The notes below the pieces were generated by a model. That model was not told the DNA's origin. It worked only from the letters and a program-made list of their open reading frames with translations, and did no database searches. A DNA stretch of 64,000 nucleotides, taken from positions 3,534,001 through 3,598,000 of the forward strand of contig NC_079238.1 of the NCBI RefSeq assembly GCF_027921745.1, given 5' to 3'. Both the position numbers and the translations under genes were made by a program. This document shows, one piece after another, positions 42,315-58,720 of this stretch. This DNA is from Schizosaccharomyces osmophilus. Its lineage: Eukaryota; Ascomycota; Schizosaccharomycetes; Schizosaccharomycetales; Schizosaccharomycetaceae. How positions within the stretch are numbered: the stretch's first letter is position 1; every line of letters begins with the position of its first letter.

Positions 42315-43278
42315 AAGTCAAAAGTAGTAATGTTCATATCAGAGCATGAGATATCAATTTGTCGTGAAATATGGTTCTACGACCATGCGAAGGGTATCCT
42401 CAAATTTAAGAATAACGGTCTGTTTACCAAAATTGAACGTATCTCCTTATTCTACTATGTTTACTTTATCTTATTCATCCTTTTTATAGTATAATAAATG
42501 ACAATTGGATCGATTTTGTTTTATTTTCTATATGAATAGACAATGCATATGCAAAAAGAAGTGAATATTCATTCAAAGTCTAAGATTTGTGCCCCCTCGA
42601 AGGAAACACACTTGTCAGAATTCAAAGACGTGATAAAGCAACGAAACAAGAGGGTCTTGTTGCAAATATTTTCGACATAGGAAATTGAAGTTCTTTATAT
42701 AAAAGAAAGGTTTAAGGATGATTTTGAACCATCCGAATGTTTGTTACGAAAATGCCAAAAACTTGTGCGACGACTGCCTAAACTAAGCGAAACGTAAATT
42801 ATAGTTTATTCGACAACAGTCACAAGAATATATATAAACACATACAGAGCAGCCTTTCCTCTTGTTAAAGTACTTTTCTATTTTAACTTTAGAATGCAGG
42901 TGCATTAATAAATGCTCTTTTTGTTTATGAATGTGTAAAGGTACAAGTCAAACCGTAAAGACATAAAATTTAATCACATGTCTCTTTCTAAACTCTCTTT
43001 GAAGGATAAAAGTGTCGAAGATTGAGTTGGAGGTACCTCTGATGGTATATATAGAGACTAGAAAAAATCTTTGCGCTGTTGAGTACGGTTGCTCCTTATG
43101 GGGTACTCGTAATTTTTTGGGCAAACATGTATTTTGTTATATGCTATATATTATCATAGGATTAAATACCAAAGATTCACGGTCCAAAAAAAAAAGCGAA
43201 AGTAGCTATCATGAGAAGTTTCAGAAAAGTGGGTAAAGTACTAAATAACAAAAGAACGACCTATCTGTAAAGTAAATC
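42315..43278. other. Intergenic region psd1 3' / HERP-like promoter
   Basis: 964 bp, AT-rich, between two minus-strand genes. TGTTTAC cores lie near 42419 and 42459. An open frame of 74 codons at 43012-43236 has no recognisable features. No gene supported. Confidence 0.5.
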
Positions 43279-44592
43279 TCATGGCTCTGGTTTTAAGTTG
43301 CCAAGTGATTGGCCTACTTTTACAGCCTGACCTCGTTGGATGTCAAACTGAAAGTTTGCTGGCGCCTCAAAAACAAGGACAACGGTACTTCCTAGTTCAA
43401 AATTTCCGATTTCCTCGCCCCTCAGTAATGGATGTCCATGTAGAATTGCAGAAGATTTCGTATATACTGCCTCGTCGTATGTACCGGTAGGACCCAGTTT
43501 TCCAAATTGATTTGTACAGAGTTCTTTATCAAAGTTGATGCGGATACTTCCGACATTCGTGGCGCCCACTGGAATCATGCTCATGAATCCATATTTGTAG
43601 CGCCCAAGCATAGCGACTCTTTCATTCAAAACGAAAAGATTTCCCAACTTACTTACCATATAGGGCGAAACACTAAATAATTCCCCAGAAAAGTGTCGTC
43701 TTCGTTCTACGACCCAGTCTGTGGGTGAATGGAATCGATGATAATCACCAGGTGCCAAGTAAATGACGGCGTAATACAAAAGGTTTTGGTCCCGAGAGCG
43801 CAAGAAATCAAATGTAGAGCGCATGGCGACTTTCGTAGAGTTCAGCAAATCGACTTGGTTAGCACTAGCATCTTTAATAGAGTTATGAGAATGCTCCTTA
43901 TCATGCCCCATTAAATCTTGTAAACTATACTCTATACCATTTACAAGAGCGAATTCCTCTTGGCTTATATGTGGAATGTGGTCTGGCGAAGGAATAGCAT
44001 GGGCTTTTTGTAAACGGGCCAAATGCTCTTTTCCCAACAATGCCTCTAGAGAGTAAGTTAATCCCTTGACTTGCTCCAGATGACCTCCCTCGATGACTCC
44101 GTAATTCAGCACTTTCCCATCTGCCGGGCTAACAAGGATGGCCCCAGAATCAATAGGGCGACAACCGGGTTTTAGCTTTCGTGTAAAAAATTCAGCAAGA
44201 TTTCGATATTGTTTTAAATCTTGTATTTCAGCTTCTTTCAAATCGCAGTTGAACAACCATGAGTATAGACGGAATCCGGGATTCCTTAAGTACAGAGGAA
44301 TTTCCACTCGATTCACGTAGCCCCACCACCTAGATAATGTTCTTAAAGGCAAAGTACTCAATACATAAAAGTGCCATGGGCCTTCCACGCTCACGCCGGT
44401 CTTTGTTGGCTTTTTTTCGTGTCGATCTTGATTCCAAGCATACCCAACCAAACCAACAAGACCAAGACCTGCTATACTTAAACCAAGACTTAATGCCTTA
44501 CGCTTTCTTCCGAAATGAACGTTTGTGAAAATGGGTCTGGTTGTATTCAAGGAATGAATTGGAAATCGACGAATTTTATGAGGACGCAGCAT
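43279..44592 (-). CDS. psd1: Phosphatidylserine decarboxylase, mitochondrial
   Basis: Makes phosphatidylethanolamine from phosphatidylserine at the mitochondrial inner membrane. 437 residues. The N-terminus is basic (MLRPHKIRRFPIHSLNTTR), a mitochondrial presequence, and a hydrophobic helix (KALSLGLSIAGLGLVGLVGY) anchors the beta chain. The LGST motif (FELGSTVVLVFEAP) cleaves itself between Gly401 and Ser402; Ser402 becomes the pyruvoyl prosthetic group of the small alpha chain. VSPADGKVLNYG and APGDYHRFHSP are other family marks. It is divergent from rem1, as its S. pombe counterpart is. Confidence 0.94.
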   Translation of the reverse strand: MLRPHKIRRFPIHSLNTTRPIFTNVHFGRKRKALSLGLSIAGLGLVGLVGYAWNQDRHEKKPTKTGVSVEGPWHFYVLSTLPLRTLSRWWGYVNRVEIPLYLRNPGFRLYSWLFNCDLKEAEIQDLKQYRNLAEFFTRKLKPGCRPIDSGAILVSPADGKVLNYGVIEGGHLEQVKGLTYSLEALLGKEHLARLQKAHAIPSPDHIPHISQEEFALVNGIEYSLQDLMGHDKEHSHNSIKDASANQVDLLNSTKVAMRSTFDFLRSRDQNLLYYAVIYLAPGDYHRFHSPTDWVVERRRHFSGELFSVSPYMVSKLGNLFVLNERVAMLGRYKYGFMSMIPVGATNVGSIRINFDKELCTNQFGKLGPTGTYDEAVYTKSSAILHGHPLLRGEEIGNFELGSTVVLVFEAPANFQFDIQRGQAVKVGQSLGNLKPEP

Positions 44593-45037: not shown

Positions 45038-45048
45038 GTAAATAAACA
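45038..45048 (+). promoter_or_regulatory. FLEX-like Mei4 site, distal
   Basis: GTAAATAAACA matches the GTAAAYA core of Mei4 and other fission-yeast forkhead factors. It lies 328 bp before the rem1 ATG. Confidence 0.5.
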
Positions 45049-45197
45049 CACATGCTATCAGACAAATCTAGCTTTTAAGTAGGTTTCCCAAGAATGTAAT
45101 AGTTTCATTGTTTTTAATTTCATGCATCAAATAGCGTTTCTCACAGGTTGTAAATATCACATCCACTACGTAAGCTAACAAACATTATGTCTGAATT

Positions 45198-45210
45198 GTA
45201 AACAAACAAA
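45198..45210 (+). promoter_or_regulatory. FLEX-like Mei4 site, proximal
   Basis: GTAAACAAACAAA is a near-ideal FLEX element. It lies 166 bp before the rem1 ATG. S. pombe rem1 is a Mei4 target, so a functional site is expected here. Confidence 0.65.
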
Positions 45211-45340
45211 CCTTTTGTAAAAACCTGGGTACTCGATCTACGACTCAACAACAATTCAAGGAAAAATAGAAAGAAAGAATATTTTCATCCAACAGCATAT
45301 TGAATTTAACCGCTTATGATTTAAACCGAAACAGAGATAG

Positions 45341-45379
45341 ATGTATATGAAAGAGCCTTGGTTTTTCTATGAAAAATGA
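45341..45379 (+). other. uORF whose stop overlaps the rem1 start
   Basis: ATG at 45341 opens 12 codons and stops at TGA 45377-45379, sharing ATGA with the rem1 start at 45376. The real transcript start is unknown, so the uORF matters only if it lies downstream of the cap. Confidence 0.5.
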
Positions 45380-46622
45380 AAACAAGCCTTGAACGACAAG
45401 CCTTAAAAGAAATCAGCAATCGAGAAAAATCAAACGCTAAAAACTCTACCACAGTTAAAGTGAAAGAGATCAAACCACTATTGTCTGATGATTCGGAGGC
45501 GAGACATCCATATTCGGAAGAAAGAGGAAGATCTACGACAAGAGAAGAAATCAAGAATCAATTCAAAGACATATTCTTTCCGTATACATCTAATGATAAA
45601 TCAATTTTAGAAGAAGCCATCGACTTGACGTTTCAGGGTATTGAGTCGGATGAAGCAGAAACAAGCCCAGAGGATATATTGGAGGATATTAGCGAAGAAA
45701 ACACATTTATCGATGAAACAGAAGTAGAATCGTATATAGAGGAGAAACTAAAGTCCGACTATGAGGCAGATACTACGGTTTCCGTTGAATATGCCAAAGA
45801 GATTTTTTGCCATATGAAACACTTAGAGGTAAGCGTTTTCAAGTGAAAAATAGGAAAGCTAATTTCAATTAACAGAATCGACTCATGCCCGACTATCGAC
45901 ACTTGACTTCTCATCCATTTCATGTTTTGGAAATGAGAACTGTAGTCATATGTTGGATTATAGGGATTCATTACGAAATGAACCTTTTACCAGAAACGCT
46001 GTTTCTAACGATCAACATATTTGACAGATTTTTTTCGTTGAAAAATGTAGCAGTCTCAAAAATGAAACAAATAGCGATGGCCGCCTTACTTTTAGCTTCC
46101 AAATACGAAGAAATCCATCCCCCGAGCAATAAAGAAGCATGTAGCTTGCTTGGAGAGGGAACGGTTGGCGATCTATGCAAAGCAGAAACGTATATATTGA
46201 TCGTACTGCAATATGAGTTAGGGTGGCCGGGTCCTATGCCATACCTACGCTTGCTTAGTATATCGGACAGCTGGGATGCTGATATGCGAATTGCGGTCAA
46301 GTACTTTCTTGAAATTTGTATACTGGATCCGAGATTTCTAAGCCAAAAAGCAAGTCAAGCAGTGGCTACATGTGCGTATACGGCCTATTGTATTTTGCAC
46401 AATGGAAACTGGAGCGGGACATTGTACAAACTGACGGGTTACCACTGCGCAAACGTCGCGCCTTTTATGCATTTACTGCTAGAGTGTTTACAAGATCCAG
46501 CCGAACATCATCGCTGCGTCTATGCAAAATATTCCACAAGGATATCGCGATACATAAGTCAGCGTATTCATGAGTGGATTAGTATTAATATTCAACTATC
46601 CTCGTCGGGGTCGTATTTATGA
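45376..46622 (+). CDS. rem1: Meiosis-specific B-type cyclin Rem1
   Basis: Cyclin partner of Cdc2 for meiosis. Exons 45376-45828 and 45876-46622 give 399 residues. Cyclin box 1 spans the junction: HFMKHLE-type helix 1 ends YAKEIFCHMKHLE, then NRLMPDYRHLTSHPFHV, HYEMNLLPETLFLTINIFDRF and KQIAMAALLLASKYEEIHPP. Box 2 has FLEICILDPRFLSQKASQAVA. Intron 45829-45875 (47 nt; GTAAGC donor, AATTAACAG end) is at the same place as the regulated intron known in S. pombe rem1. If kept, the frame adds five residues and stops, leaving a 156-residue protein of about 17 kDa without the cyclin boxes. It lies next to psd1, as in S. pombe. Confidence 0.92.
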
Positions 46623-48809
46623 AACCATATATAATATCCTATCCCTGTATGAAGTGTCAACACGAGCGAAGGGGTTCTCAAGCTTGGCGAAAGTAAACAC
46701 AGCTAGCTAGTATGGAGAATGAATGAATCGAGTTTGCATTATCCTGATCAACAACTGTATATGGCAAGACCTGCTGTTTGGCTAAAAATACATGCAATTT
46801 GACGCGTCTCGTATCGAAAGTAGATAATTAAAGTCCTACGTCGTAGCTCAAATAAACTATCACTTGAGAGGTGTCACTCGAGAAAGGTCTGTGTAGTATT
46901 TAATCCAAGCAAGTAAAAAAGCGATTCAAATTTCTCTTAATTCTCTTGACAAAAAAAAATATAAAGGGAAAGAGCGATGGAAAAAGAAACGACAGCAACG
47001 GATATTCTTTGGTCAATTCGTCGTTATTGTTCGCTCTGCCTTTCGCTTTGACTTAACCCCACATGCCCCCACGACGTCCCAGAAGACTCGTCTTTGGACT
47101 CGGTTTGCCTTGCTGTATTGCACATATTCCAACACCCCCACATCGGACTTTAGTATGTTTTGGGGTCATACAGTTAGCTACAGGCGAGGTTAGGAACACT
47201 TGGTAGAGAGAAAGAGAAACCACCTAGGCTGGTAAGGGCGGTACTTTCAGTTGGTCATGGGAACCAAAGAAATCAGCATTGGTCCTAGTGAGTATATTGC
47301 TTAAACAAAAGACGCAACAGCAGTTTTCAGGATCACGAAGGAAAGGCCCATGACAGAAAGGTGGGTAACAGTGAAGGAGGGAAAGAAACAAGTCGGTAGT
47401 TTTCTAGTTCCATTTCCCATTTCACATTTCTCATTCCATTTTCATTTTCCTTCAATTTCTTTCATTTGGTTGAAAGGCGCTGACTGGGGAGAACGGAAGG
47501 AGGAAGGAAGGAATCTAAAAGTAACCATGGTGGAGGCTGGGCTAGATAGAATAATCGTAGACACGAAGAAAGAATAAGGAATGACATGATCAAAGTGAGA
47601 AATCATGAATGACGGAGAACAGCCAGCCTCATGCAGAATACCAACAAAAGCAAAAGCAGCAAGCAGAGCAAACCATGATGGTTTCGTCATGATTTCGTTT
47701 GTCTTTTCTCTATTCTACATCATCATTGAATACTCCGGGGAACCACCTAGTTGTTGTCTAGTTATGACGAATATTTATCATTATGTTACTCTCCAAAATA
47801 AGCTACGCTTAATTTTATCTAATCAAGATAAGTCGAAAGAAGTTGATCGCAGCAAGTACGAGCAAGAGAAACAGGGTGGAAACCATCGTGAATACCATGT
47901 ACCTTTCCATGGTTTCCCACAACACAATAGCTAGAATAAAAAAGAACGTTATTATTTATCAACTCTCGATCAAAGGGACTCTTTCCCACGTACAGTGCTG
48001 GAAATAGGTTCATTTCCCATATAAAATTTTAGAGGACAGCGGAAAAATCCCAAACGCTAGCTAGTAGGATGCTGGAAGAACCAAAACCAGACAGTATGAA
48101 ACAACTGAGGCTTTGTCCGTATTTTCTCTTCTACTATCCATAGCACCGCATCAAAAGCTTCCCTGGCTTCGCTGAATTTTCCATCCACCTCGTATTCGCA
48201 GGAATTGGATTACTTGATGATTGCGTCAGTCCATGAAGCCTGACGAGGCAGCAAATTGTATAAGGTGAATAGGATCATTCCAGTCTTAATGAATAGGATC
48301 TTTTTCGTTTCGTTTAAAAGAAGATGACGTTCCAAGTCATACATACAGTGATGTAAGGTATTGTCGAAGCTATATATATGCATGATGAATGCCACGAAAT
48401 ACCTACACAACTCAATCGAAAAGACTATTATTTATCGGGAGAATTTTGGGTTTTTGACTGCTAATACGAAAAAGCAAAGACTCTTTGGTTCCCTCATTGT
48501 TTGATTTCATTCATTAACGAGATCCCTGTTTCCTATTTACCCTTCTACTTATTCCACATAAGGAATTCTACATTAACTTCGTTTATTCCATTGATTCACA
48601 AGTGCTGTGTAGTAATTCTTTTCCATTACAATTTCATCTAATACGATATCGTTTTCATCGAGTTTGATATACAGACTTTTATTTATTTATATATAAACTA
48701 CGGAGTTTCTTGTGATTGTACAAAAAACTTTTTAGTTATTCTAGCTACTATTATTTTTGACGACTGATTTTACACGTTTTTGTTTCCCAACAATTTTTGA
48801 TTGTCGATC
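46623..48809. other. 2.2-kb gene-free region between rem1 and lsd90
   Basis: The longest stretch without a supported gene. It holds an ACGCGT (46802-46807), a palindromic tacgtcgta near 46835, C-rich blocks (47060-47150), a CATTT-rich tract (47409-47472), gctagctag motifs near 46703 and 48056, and a TATATAAAC box near 48690. Small open frames (75-109 codons) have no family features. It is likely a long promoter/leader of lsd90 with possible non-coding RNA; unproven. Confidence 0.5.
47409..47472. repeat. CATTT-type imperfect tandem tract
   Basis: Repeated cattt/ccattt units with small changes (ttccatttcccatttcac, then tctcattccattttc). Non-coding, pyrimidine-rich. Confidence 0.7.
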
Positions 48810-51320
48810 ATGGACGCCCTGAAGAACGCTGGAAAAGTAAACAACGCCAAGGAAGAAGCCAAAAATGTTAGCCAAAAGCCCGGTCAGGCCGCTAAAGGCA
48901 ATGTCGAAGATGTAAAATCCGGCGCTAACAAGAATGTACAGGACCTCAAGAATAATCCCCAAAACGCCGCCAGCAAGGCCAAGGGAGAATATGCCAAGCA
49001 TTCCGCCAAAAACAACTTGAACCAACACATGCCTGGTGGCTTCAACAAGAACGACGAAGATGCCGCTGGTAAAGGCGCCTCTAATGTAGGCGGTCAATCC
49101 GACTCCCCTGACAAGGGTGCCTCTAATGTGGGTGGTCAACCAAGCTCCCCTAGCAGAGGTAGAGAAGTGCAAGGCGCTGAGGGTCTCGGTGCTGGAACTG
49201 GAGCTGGAGCTGGTGCTGGTGCTGGTGCTGGTGCTGGTACTTATGGCGGCCCTCAACGTTCTGCTACCCAACGCGAAACTGGTCATGGATATCCAAGCGT
49301 TCATCGCGAACAGAGCACAAAGTCTAGCCACGGTGGCTATGAAGGATCCCGTTCCGTCTCTGCTAACGGCGGTGACCCACAATTCACCAATGTGAAGATT
49401 ACTGCTACCCAAAACAACATTGATGCCCTTACTGGTGCTCCCGTTCGCATTGTCACTACCACCAATGCCCGTATCCAACCCGACGACAAGTCTCTTCACG
49501 AATTGCTTGAACAAAGACAACGTGCCTTGCGTGAGGCCCGTGAAGCTGAAGAAGAACTTCGTCGTGCCCGCCATTTTAATAACCGTTCTAGTTCCGAGGC
49601 TGCTGGTCTCGAATCCCGTGCCAGACAACGCGCTGAAGCTGCTGAGATCGCTTCTCAACGCGCTCGTGATGCCCAAGCCAACATCGAACGCTCTGCTAGT
49701 CTCAGAGAAAGACAAGCTAAAGAAGAGGCTGACCATGCTCACGCTGTCTTGCGTGAAGCCGAGTTGAAGCACCGTCTTGCTCAAAGAGGTGCCAACCGTG
49801 ATGTTGCCAGATCAAGATTGGAAGTTGCTCTCAGAAATCAGGAGTTGTTGCAAGCTGACAGAGAGAGAAAGGTATCACACCAAAGAGCTATTATTGATAG
49901 CTGCAAGGACGACTTGGATCGCGCCAATCATGACGCTGCTCTTGCCGAAGCTCAGAACAGAAAAATCCAATATGAATTCAGTGCTTTGCTTGCTGAATTG
50001 GAGGAACGCAATGATACCACGCTTCGTACTGCTTCTATCCGTGAGGCTGAAGCCAGAAACTTGGAAGTCCACATGGATGATACTTTGAAGGATGCCAGAA
50101 TGAGAAGCAGAAATGCTACTGAGCAAGTTGACCGCCTCCGTAGTGAAAACAAGGCTAAGTACGCTGAAATTGATACTGGTGTCAACCAAGCTCGCAATGC
50201 TTATGCTCAATATGAGCAAAACATTCCAACCAGACGCCAACAATACGGATCCGAGCTTGACGATGCAGCTGAGGCCTTGAAAGCTGCTCAAGCACGCTTC
50301 GATGCTGCCAAGAGAAGGGTTGACCAATTTGAATCTGAATCTCGTCAACAATTGTCACTTCTCCAAAACAGAATCCGTGATTCTGAAGATGCCGCCAACC
50401 AATTCCGTATTCAAGCCGACAAGAGAGACAAGGAGATTCAATACAGTGTCACTCAAGCTTATGACGCGGTCAAGGCAGCTGAAAAGCGTAATGAAAAGAT
50501 TGCCGAAGCTGCTAGAGCTAAAGAATTGGAAGCTAAGGAATTGTATGCTACTGCTCAAAGCATCACTCAAGGATTAGAAACCAAGCGTGCTCACCCTCCA
50601 TCTCCTGTGAGAGGTAACTTCCAAGCTGAAATTGAACGTGCTCAGCAACGCTACAATATTGAACAATCCAAATTGAGTGAATTGGATACTCGTGAACCTT
50701 CCGACTATGCAAGCGATGTTGAAGCTGCTAGGAATGCATTGAGAGAAGCCGAAAACGCTTATGTAAGTGTTGAACGTGAATACACCAGCGTTAAAGGTAG
50801 CAACGAGAATTTTAAACCCACTAGCTATACTACTGAGCCTAGTAGTAGCGGCAGCTATGAACATCAGAAACCGGAGGAGACTAGTACTACAAACCGTGGT
50901 GCTTCTCAAGCATATCACTACCCAGCAACTACTAATGCTCCCACTACTACTTCTAAGAGTGCTGGTCCTGCTTATGTAGATGCTCCTCATCCCGGCACTG
51001 GTCCATCAGGATCCCACGCTGGTGCTGCTGGAGCCGGTATCTCAACCGTTCCTGGTACTGCTCTTGGTGCAGATAATGTCAGCGGTACTTACGGCGGTGG
51101 TGGTAATCTAGGTGGCAGCGGTGCCAAGGGAACCCAGAATAAGGGTAGCGGCAACGGTCTCAAGGATGACCTTAGCGACTCCGATTCCGAGTCTAGGGAC
51201 ATCTCAAGGAAGAAGAGTGGAAAGTCTGCAAAATCCGACCGTAGAGGCAGCGCCAGCAGTACAACTAGCCGCGGCGGATTGATGTCTAATGTCAAGCACG
51301 CATTGGGCATGGATAAGTAA
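48810..51320 (+). CDS. lsd90: Lsd90-type coiled-coil protein
   Basis: An 836-residue protein. The N-terminus (MDALKNAGKVNNAKEEAKNV) is amphipathic, Lys/Ala/Asn-rich, followed by near-repeats of GASNVGGQ and a Gly-Ala tract (GAGTGAGAGAGAGAGAG, near residues 130-146). Residues 225-660 form a long alpha-helical coiled coil very rich in Arg, Ala, Glu and Gln. The C-terminal 150 residues are Ser/Gly/Thr-rich and end KHALGMDK, another short amphipathic helix. The ATG at 48810 is used; the frame opens three codons earlier without an ATG. Codon use is strongly biased (GCT/GCC, CGT), so it is highly expressed. The name comes from position (rem1-lsd90-zrg17) and layout; S. pombe Lsd90 is linked to the lsd1 fatty-acid-synthase mutant phenotype. 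Biochemical role unknown. Confidence 0.75.
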   Translation: MDALKNAGKVNNAKEEAKNVSQKPGQAAKGNVEDVKSGANKNVQDLKNNPQNAASKAKGEYAKHSAKNNLNQHMPGGFNKNDEDAAGKGASNVGGQSDSPDKGASNVGGQPSSPSRGREVQGAEGLGAGTGAGAGAGAGAGAGTYGGPQRSATQRETGHGYPSVHREQSTKSSHGGYEGSRSVSANGGDPQFTNVKITATQNNIDALTGAPVRIVTTTNARIQPDDKSLHELLEQRQRALREAREAEEELRRARHFNNRSSSEAAGLESRARQRAEAAEIASQRARDAQANIERSASLRERQAKEEADHAHAVLREAELKHRLAQRGANRDVARSRLEVALRNQELLQADRERKVSHQRAIIDSCKDDLDRANHDAALAEAQNRKIQYEFSALLAELEERNDTTLRTASIREAEARNLEVHMDDTLKDARMRSRNATEQVDRLRSENKAKYAEIDTGVNQARNAYAQYEQNIPTRRQQYGSELDDAAEALKAAQARFDAAKRRVDQFESESRQQLSLLQNRIRDSEDAANQFRIQADKRDKEIQYSVTQAYDAVKAAEKRNEKIAEAARAKELEAKELYATAQSITQGLETKRAHPPSPVRGNFQAEIERAQQRYNIEQSKLSELDTREPSDYASDVEAARNALREAENAYVSVEREYTSVKGSNENFKPTSYTTEPSSSGSYEHQKPEETSTTNRGASQAYHYPATTNAPTTTSKSAGPAYVDAPHPGTGPSGSHAGAAGAGISTVPGTALGADNVSGTYGGGGNLGGSGAKGTQNKGSGNGLKDDLSDSDSESRDISRKKSGKSAKSDRRGSASSTTSRGGLMSNVKHALGMDK
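49198..49239 (+). repeat. GGTGCT hexamer tandem repeat in lsd90
   Basis: A GGAGCTGGAGCT run followed by repeated GGTGCT units encodes the Gly-Ala tract of Lsd90. In-frame hexamers can change length without breaking the protein. Confidence 0.85.
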
Positions 51321-57812: not shown

Positions 57813-58720
57813 ATGACAGACTCTTTGGTACATGCTTTGGCTTCAGATACACAAATTTTGGCTTTCCAATCTTTTGAACATGCCGAAGAACTTTGTCTTC
57901 TTGGTGCTGAATGGATACAAAAAGCAGGCATATTATTACAGATGTAAGTAAGCGAAATAAGTGCGATAGATCGTATTCTCTCTCTCACATTGCTTCGGCA
58001 AGCTCAACTGAAGAGACAAACATAATTATATAGCTTGGCTTTTTTTAAGAGAGGTTTCTCTATAACATTTGCTAACCCAATTCGTTTAGAAGCCAAAGAT
58101 GCGTCTATACCTCCCTTGTCTTATTTCGTCGTTATTGTACATTATGTCCTCCTAGGGCTGTAGATTTAAACATTTGTGTGATGGCTTGTTTGTATTTAGG
58201 GTGTAAAGCAACCGAAACCGATGTTTCGTCCCAAGATCTGTGTAATATAGGAATCTATTTGAAGGAGCAATTCCTGAACCCAGAAATAGAGTATCAGATT
58301 CACGATTTGTTTAGCACTGAAATGTATACTACAAAAGGAAAAATCAATGATATGGAGTTGGAGATTCTACGAGTTATTGACTTTGACACCCATACTGTAA
58401 TACCTCACAAATTGGCCATTCATTATCTACAGACGTTGGGATTGATCCATGACGAACGCTTCACACAGTGTACGTGGAATCTTTTGAACGATTCTTTACA
58501 TACTTTACTCTGCGTTTCCGTTTTGCCTTTCGGAATAGCTGTCGGCTGTATCGCTCTAGCTAGCCGAGTTTTGAGTCGAAAATTACCTCAGGATTGGTAT
58601 CAGGTTTTTGATAGTTCGGAAGAAGACTTGGAGTTAACAAAAACATCCTTGGAGAGCTTTTATAAAACTTCGGATTCTTTGCATGACAAAACTAGACCCT
58701 TATTTACAGCATCTTCATAG
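57813..58720 (+). CDS. Cyclin of the cyclin L / cyclin Q group
   Basis: A 253-residue transcription-type cyclin. Exons 57813-57943 and 58090-58720 join in phase across a 146-nt intron (GTAAGT donor, GCTAACCC branch). Box 1 has WIQKAGILLQISQRCVYTS and LNICVMACLYLGCKATE; the MELEILRVIDFDTHTVIPH stretch and box 2 TWNLLNDSLHTLLCV, IAVGCIALASRVL and WYQVFDSSEEDL match human cyclin L (AWNYMNDSLRTNVFV) and cyclin Q (WWQVFNDDL). Such cyclins pair with CTD or splicing-linked kinases. It sits beside a mug65-like gene and sxa2, where I recall an S. pombe cyclin L family gene. L versus Q cannot be settled here. Confidence 0.82.

Follow-up and report, generated by a model that had tools for sequence, protein, structure and literature searches.

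Does the rem1 gene of Schizosaccharomyces osmophilus encode two proteins, a cyclin from the spliced transcript and a short protein from an intron-retaining one, or is it a meiotic cyclin gene with an ordinary intron? The first-pass annotation had taken the layout of the locus as a sign that a splicing switch is ancestral and that the short protein has been selected. We analyzed the window, i.e., the whole stretch of 64,000 nucleotides at positions 3,534,001 to 3,598,000 of contig NC_079238.1 (assembly GCF_027921745.1), and coordinates below refer to its first letter.

The precedent comes from S. pombe. According to two reviews, the unspliced rem1 transcript is translated into a truncated Rem1 protein without cyclin box, which has a role in recombination: normal gene conversion depends on it, and in rem1 mutants it rescues recombination (PMC7397238, PMC9745066); its mode of action is stated as unknown (PMC9745066). 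The separate recombination role that had been claimed for the short S. pombe protein is thus indeed reported. Meiosis-specific splicing of rem1 is restated in three further papers (PMC8624252, PMC11178228, PMC4701394), the latter two of which give the S. pombe intron as 80 nt. However, strand-specific RT-PCR in S. pombe revealed no unspliced sense rem1 RNA, the signal being ascribed to antisense RNA, and it confirmed meiosis-specific splicing for crs1, rec8, mek1 and meu13, but not for rem1 (PMC3253116). The authors of that study suggest that the 'splicing' observed upon deletion of fkh2 may represent released sense transcription with constitutive splicing; rem1 was induced upon deletion of fkh2 and mei4, yet remained below their cut-off. 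In addition, Mei4-dependent recruitment of U1-70K, Prp11 and Cdc5 at rem1 has been cited (PMC4795683). The claim that S. pombe rem1 is spliced solely in meiosis is therefore repeated in reviews, but disputed by the strand-specific assay. The work of Moldon 2008 is said to place the control of rem1 splicing in the promoter, not in the transcribed region; if so, the intron layout is the wrong place to look.

Structure of the rem1 gene

The gene consists of two exons and one intron:

45376 to 45828, forward strand: rem1 exon 1, 151 codons long, encodes the N-terminal region and matches no Pfam family at E 0.1
45829 to 45875, forward strand: rem1 intron, 47 nt, phase 0, GTAAGC...CTAAT...CAG; its excision puts exon 1 in the cyclin frame
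45876 to 46622, forward strand: rem1 exon 2, 248 amino acids and stop, Cyclin_N and Cyclin_C folds
45829 to 45846, forward strand: retained-intron tail VSVFK and stop TGA; the 156-residue product is encoded by 45376 to 45846

The start codon is the ATG at 45376 and the exon 2 stop codon is the TGA at 46620-46622. The spliced gene encodes 399 residues with a mass of 45.9 kDa. The gene and its intron represent more than chance, because a complete cyclin fold follows the N-terminal part once the intron has been removed. The intron lies between HLE and NRLMPDYRHL, and the MR of the cyclin core follows 19 residues further on. When the intron is retained, the codons V, S, V, F and K are followed by the stop at 45844-45846, and the product has 156 residues, a mass of 18.1 kDa and a pI of 4.6, as computed from its composition. 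Thus, the exon and intron lengths, the coordinates, the phase and the five additional codons given in the first-pass annotation were all correct; in contrast, its mass of about 17 kDa for the short protein was too low, exon 1 by itself accounting for 17.5 kDa.

A weak splice site was considered as a cause of retention and turned out to be a poor argument: the 5' splice context GAG/GUAAGC (GAG/GTAAGC in the DNA) differs from GUAAGU at position +6 only, and CUAAU is common, being the second of the two commonest branch sites of S. pombe (23%; PMC4701394).

Additional start codons were observed at both exons. A 12-codon upstream ORF (MYMKEPWFFYEK) occupies 45341-45379, its TGA overlapping the rem1 ATG (AUGA), and a second upstream ATG, at 45369 and in another frame, overlaps the rem1 start. 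Translation of rem1 would need leaky scanning or reinitiation if the transcript starts upstream of 45341. Exon 2 also has an in-frame ATG (45885-46622), which follows the 3' splice site by 9 nt and the read-through stop by 38 nt; translation from there would yield a 245-residue cyclin core lacking the destruction box.

Cyclin fold, destruction box and paralogues

Exon 2 matches Cyclin_N with an E value of 7.4e-27 (positions 14-126 of 127) and Cyclin_C with 4.9e-19 (positions 1-108 of 119), and contains nearly the whole CDK-binding fold, in agreement with the earlier statement that most of the cyclin boxes reside there. The best solved relative of exon 2 is cyclin B1 (E 9.8e-25), followed by A2. 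Pfam, the solved relatives and the comparison with paralogues all identify the double fold of B/A-type cyclins.

The 156-residue form does not match any Pfam family at E 0.1, and two thirds of the exon 1 residues belong to the ten types E, D, K, R, S, T, N, Q, P and G. The N-terminus of exon 1, MKTSLERQALKEISN, includes a destruction box, for which RxxLxxIxN is the pattern:

45394 to 45420, forward strand: destruction box RQALKEISN, residues 7-15, fits RxxLxxIxN

Eight Cyclin_N matches were found in the genome, rem1 included. Three of the others are strong, and we take them to be the cdc13-, cig1- and cig2-like cyclins. With rem1 as the query, they are 33-36% identical to it, and they are 39-61% identical among themselves. 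They share with rem1 the double cyclin fold and a destruction-box-like motif (RHALDDVSN in L001, RNALADVSN in L002 and RAPLKSVEN in L003), but each of them is a single open frame without intron, whereas rem1 is split. An intron dividing the N-terminal region from the cyclin core is therefore present according to Pfam and the paralogue comparison within this species.

A weaker, second Cyclin_N match lies in the window at 58091-58390 (E 9.6e-7); judged by eye, its gene may begin near 57813 and may have an intron.

In-frame stop codons in retained introns

The open exon 1 followed by an in-frame stop is one of the features expected if rem1 used a conserved intron-retention switch. In such a switch, sense RNA made before Mei4 appears would keep the intron and encode a selected 156-residue recombination protein, and Mei4 would then recruit the spliceosome, leading to the cyclin. 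We quantified how often introns contain such a stop. Candidate introns were collected from the window and 20 sampled stretches of 10 kb, together 264 kb, with a heuristic finder that used splice signals and GC contrast. Among the 95 candidates are rem1, alternatives that overlap one another and, certainly, some false positives. After 11 candidates with ambiguous phase had been left out and rem1 had been counted in, 64 of 84 contained an in-frame stop; with all 95 candidates and weighted phases the value was 77%. When the rem1 intron was shuffled except for its first six and last three bases, 77% of 20,000 introns contained a stop, and 38% did so by the sixth codon. A stricter finder, which included a codon score, yielded eight candidates, three with an internal stop; it was dropped in favour of the looser one because four of the eight, none with a stop, were regularly spaced in a single L012 ORF.

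An in-frame stop in a retained intron is thus the generic default and is uninformative either way; the rem1 read-through stop does not exceed chance in the candidate introns or in the shuffles. Even an intron without a stop would leave exon 2 in the wrong frame, because the intron length of 47 nt is not divisible by three. The V and S at the start of the five-residue tail are dictated by any GTAAGY splice site that is in frame. The S. pombe intron is given in the literature as 80 nt, versus 47 nt here, and the read-through sequence is therefore not demonstrably common to the two species. The full-length cyclin by itself would account for conservation of exon 1, because exon 1 contains the destruction box and is required by the full cyclin anyway. 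The layout by itself does not show that a second protein has been selected, and the inference of an ancestral switch from the shared open-stop layout is not upheld.

Forkhead sites in the promoter

Upstream of the start codon, three forkhead sites were found on the coding strand:

45038 to 45044, forward strand: forkhead core GTAAATA (FLEX-like GTAAATAAAC), sequence match
45150 to 45156, forward strand: forkhead core GTAAATA, sequence match
45198 to 45210, forward strand: exact FLEX element GTAAACAAACAAA, predicted Mei4/forkhead site, beginning at -178 relative to the ATG

According to PMC9562144, the FLEX consensus is GTAAACAAACA(A/T)A(A/C) and FLEX is conserved in Mei4 targets of S. osmophilus. 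The frequency of the sites was quantified for the 376 nt upstream of 91 ORFs of at least 150 amino acids in the 264 kb sample; these ORFs were called mechanically and do not comprise all genes, and the enrichment test was chosen after the sites had been seen. Only one of the 91 upstream regions, that of rem1, had at least three forkhead cores on the same strand, and only that of rem1 had the exact FLEX 11-mer, which occurs four times in the sample. Three same-strand cores were reached in 0.06% of 20,490 overlapping windows; when both strands were counted, three cores were present in two of the 91 upstream regions. Genome-wide, the FLEX 13-mer occurs 89 times, versus 16 for a reversed control word. 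The genome has four forkhead matches, the same number as the genes of S. pombe (PMC3253116).

A Mei4/FLEX element is thus present at rem1 at the level of sequence, and the cluster is the distinctive feature of the gene here, which supports conserved control of the Mei4 type. Like its S. pombe counterpart, the gene is predicted to be a meiotic cyclin gene with a forkhead/FLEX promoter in which intron retention removes the cyclin box. In contrast to the exact site in S. osmophilus, the functional FLEX of S. pombe rem1 has a core from which the G is missing (PMC4795683).

The promoter sites appear compatible with control by transcription only and with control by transcription and splicing alike, and do not tell them apart. 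The intact FLEX cluster, the reported restoration of recombination by the short S. pombe form and the Mei4-dependent recruitment of the spliceosome cited for S. pombe are what a conserved retention switch would predict. However, unspliced rem1 RNA was absent in the strand-specific S. pombe assay, most introns would provide a stop of this kind, the intron lengths differ, and exon 1 is required by the full cyclin in any case. We therefore consider the switch unlikely.

Gene neighbourhood and orthology

Upstream of rem1, and divergent from it, lies a phosphatidylserine decarboxylase gene (43279-44592, identified with Pfam). S. pombe rem1 is presumably SPBC16E9.17c and psd1 presumably.18, and S. 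pombe lsd90 is SPBC16E9.16c. The gene is probably the rem1 orthologue in a sister fission yeast, with the promoter hallmark of its class; this assignment is based on the paralogue comparison and on the neighbours. A literature search for rem1 together with Schizosaccharomyces octosporus found nothing, and the word 'cyclin' is absent from the main text of PMC3629103, which deals with intron loss and gain.

Downstream, no ORF of at least 130 amino acids was found in the approximately 2.1 kb 3' of rem1 (46623-48740), and the next one, of 836 amino acids (48810-51320), does not match a Pfam family at E 0.01. It may be the lsd90 orthologue, in which case antisense RNA could run from it into rem1; the lsd90 promoter is strong and constitutive in S. 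pombe (PMC4085059). A match to the H/ACA snoRNA snR36 (42977-43130) adjoins the phosphatidylserine decarboxylase gene.

Mmi1-type hexamers

Retention of the intron could also be a route to decay instead of a coding route. A YTH protein would bind U(U/C/G)AAAC hexamers, and stray vegetative rem1 RNA would stay unspliced and be degraded, in the same way as the crs1 and rec8 RNAs of S. pombe. Seven such hexamers were found:

45321, 45430, 45470, 45714, 45815, 46063 and 46620 (45321 to 46625), forward strand: U(U/C/G)AAAC (Mmi1-type) hexamers, suggestive only

The region 45300-46722 contains these seven, versus a mean of 1.7 per window of equal size; 53 of 9384 overlapping windows (rem1 included) and two of 77 sampled ORFs with their flanks are as dense, and the antisense strand of the region contains one TNAAAC. 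The genome has one YTH match, and in S. pombe Mmi1 acts as a block to intron-specific splicing (PMC3203177). However, rem1 is absent by name from the main text of that paper, and none of the hexamers is inside the rem1 intron, the fifth (45815) ending 8 nt before the 5' splice site. With the looser motif TNAAAC, 161 of 9384 windows are as dense as rem1, the density in the coding part is equalled in four of 77 ORFs, and shuffling of synonymous codons reached the observed five coding TNAAAC in 15% of 5000 trials. The density of UNAAAC is suggestive by windows, but not by the synonymous shuffle, and may serve as a lead. The meiotic genes crs1 and rec8 of S. pombe also carry Mmi1-type hexamers near introns, but their meiosis-specific splicing, unlike that of S. 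pombe rem1, is strand-specifically confirmed. In summary, retention as a decay route appears improbable.

The highest TNAAAC density among the 77 ORFs was found in the septin ORF at L013 2193-3068 (seven in 876 nt), which may be meiotic and an Mmi1-type target.

Probable explanation: a Mei4-driven cyclin spliced by default

The explanation that we favour, and regard as probable, is that the gene is the rem1 orthologue, a Mei4-driven, B-type-like meiotic cyclin gene whose transcript is spliced by default once sense RNA is made. Forkhead factors would act on the FLEX cluster located about 180-340 nt upstream: a vegetative, Fkh2-like factor would hold sense transcription off, and Mei4 would switch it on in mid-meiosis. 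The 47 nt intron would then be removed by ordinary splicing as soon as the RNA is made, yielding the 399-residue cyclin with its complete CDK-binding double fold and an N-terminal destruction box that would be recognized by the APC/C. Any RNA that retained the intron would be translated into an acidic N-terminal fragment of 156 residues, which has no domain but keeps the destruction box. We favour this explanation because of the cyclin folds, the destruction box, the FLEX enrichment, the forkhead matches, the neighbouring gene and the strand-specific assay in S. pombe. The following were counted against it: later papers and reviews keep the retention model, spliceosome recruitment at rem1 has been cited (PMC4795683), two of the 91 upstream regions reach three cores when both strands are counted, and rem1 stayed below the cut-off in PMC3253116.

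The retained product could nevertheless be a conserved second protein. Acidic and mostly polar, it keeps the destruction box intact but has no fold for CDK binding, and it could act as a decoy for the APC/C activator in premeiotic S phase. In this way, it could alter when cyclin and securin are turned over, independently of CDK. We give this only a very slight probability; if true, it would supply a testable mechanism for the short Rem1 of S. pombe.

The window contains the promoter elements as well as ordinary splice signals, and a divergent fission yeast offers a natural test of the two views. Conservation of the promoter without the retained-intron protein would strengthen the view that rem1 is controlled by transcription only, whereas conservation of both would favour the view that the gene encodes two proteins.
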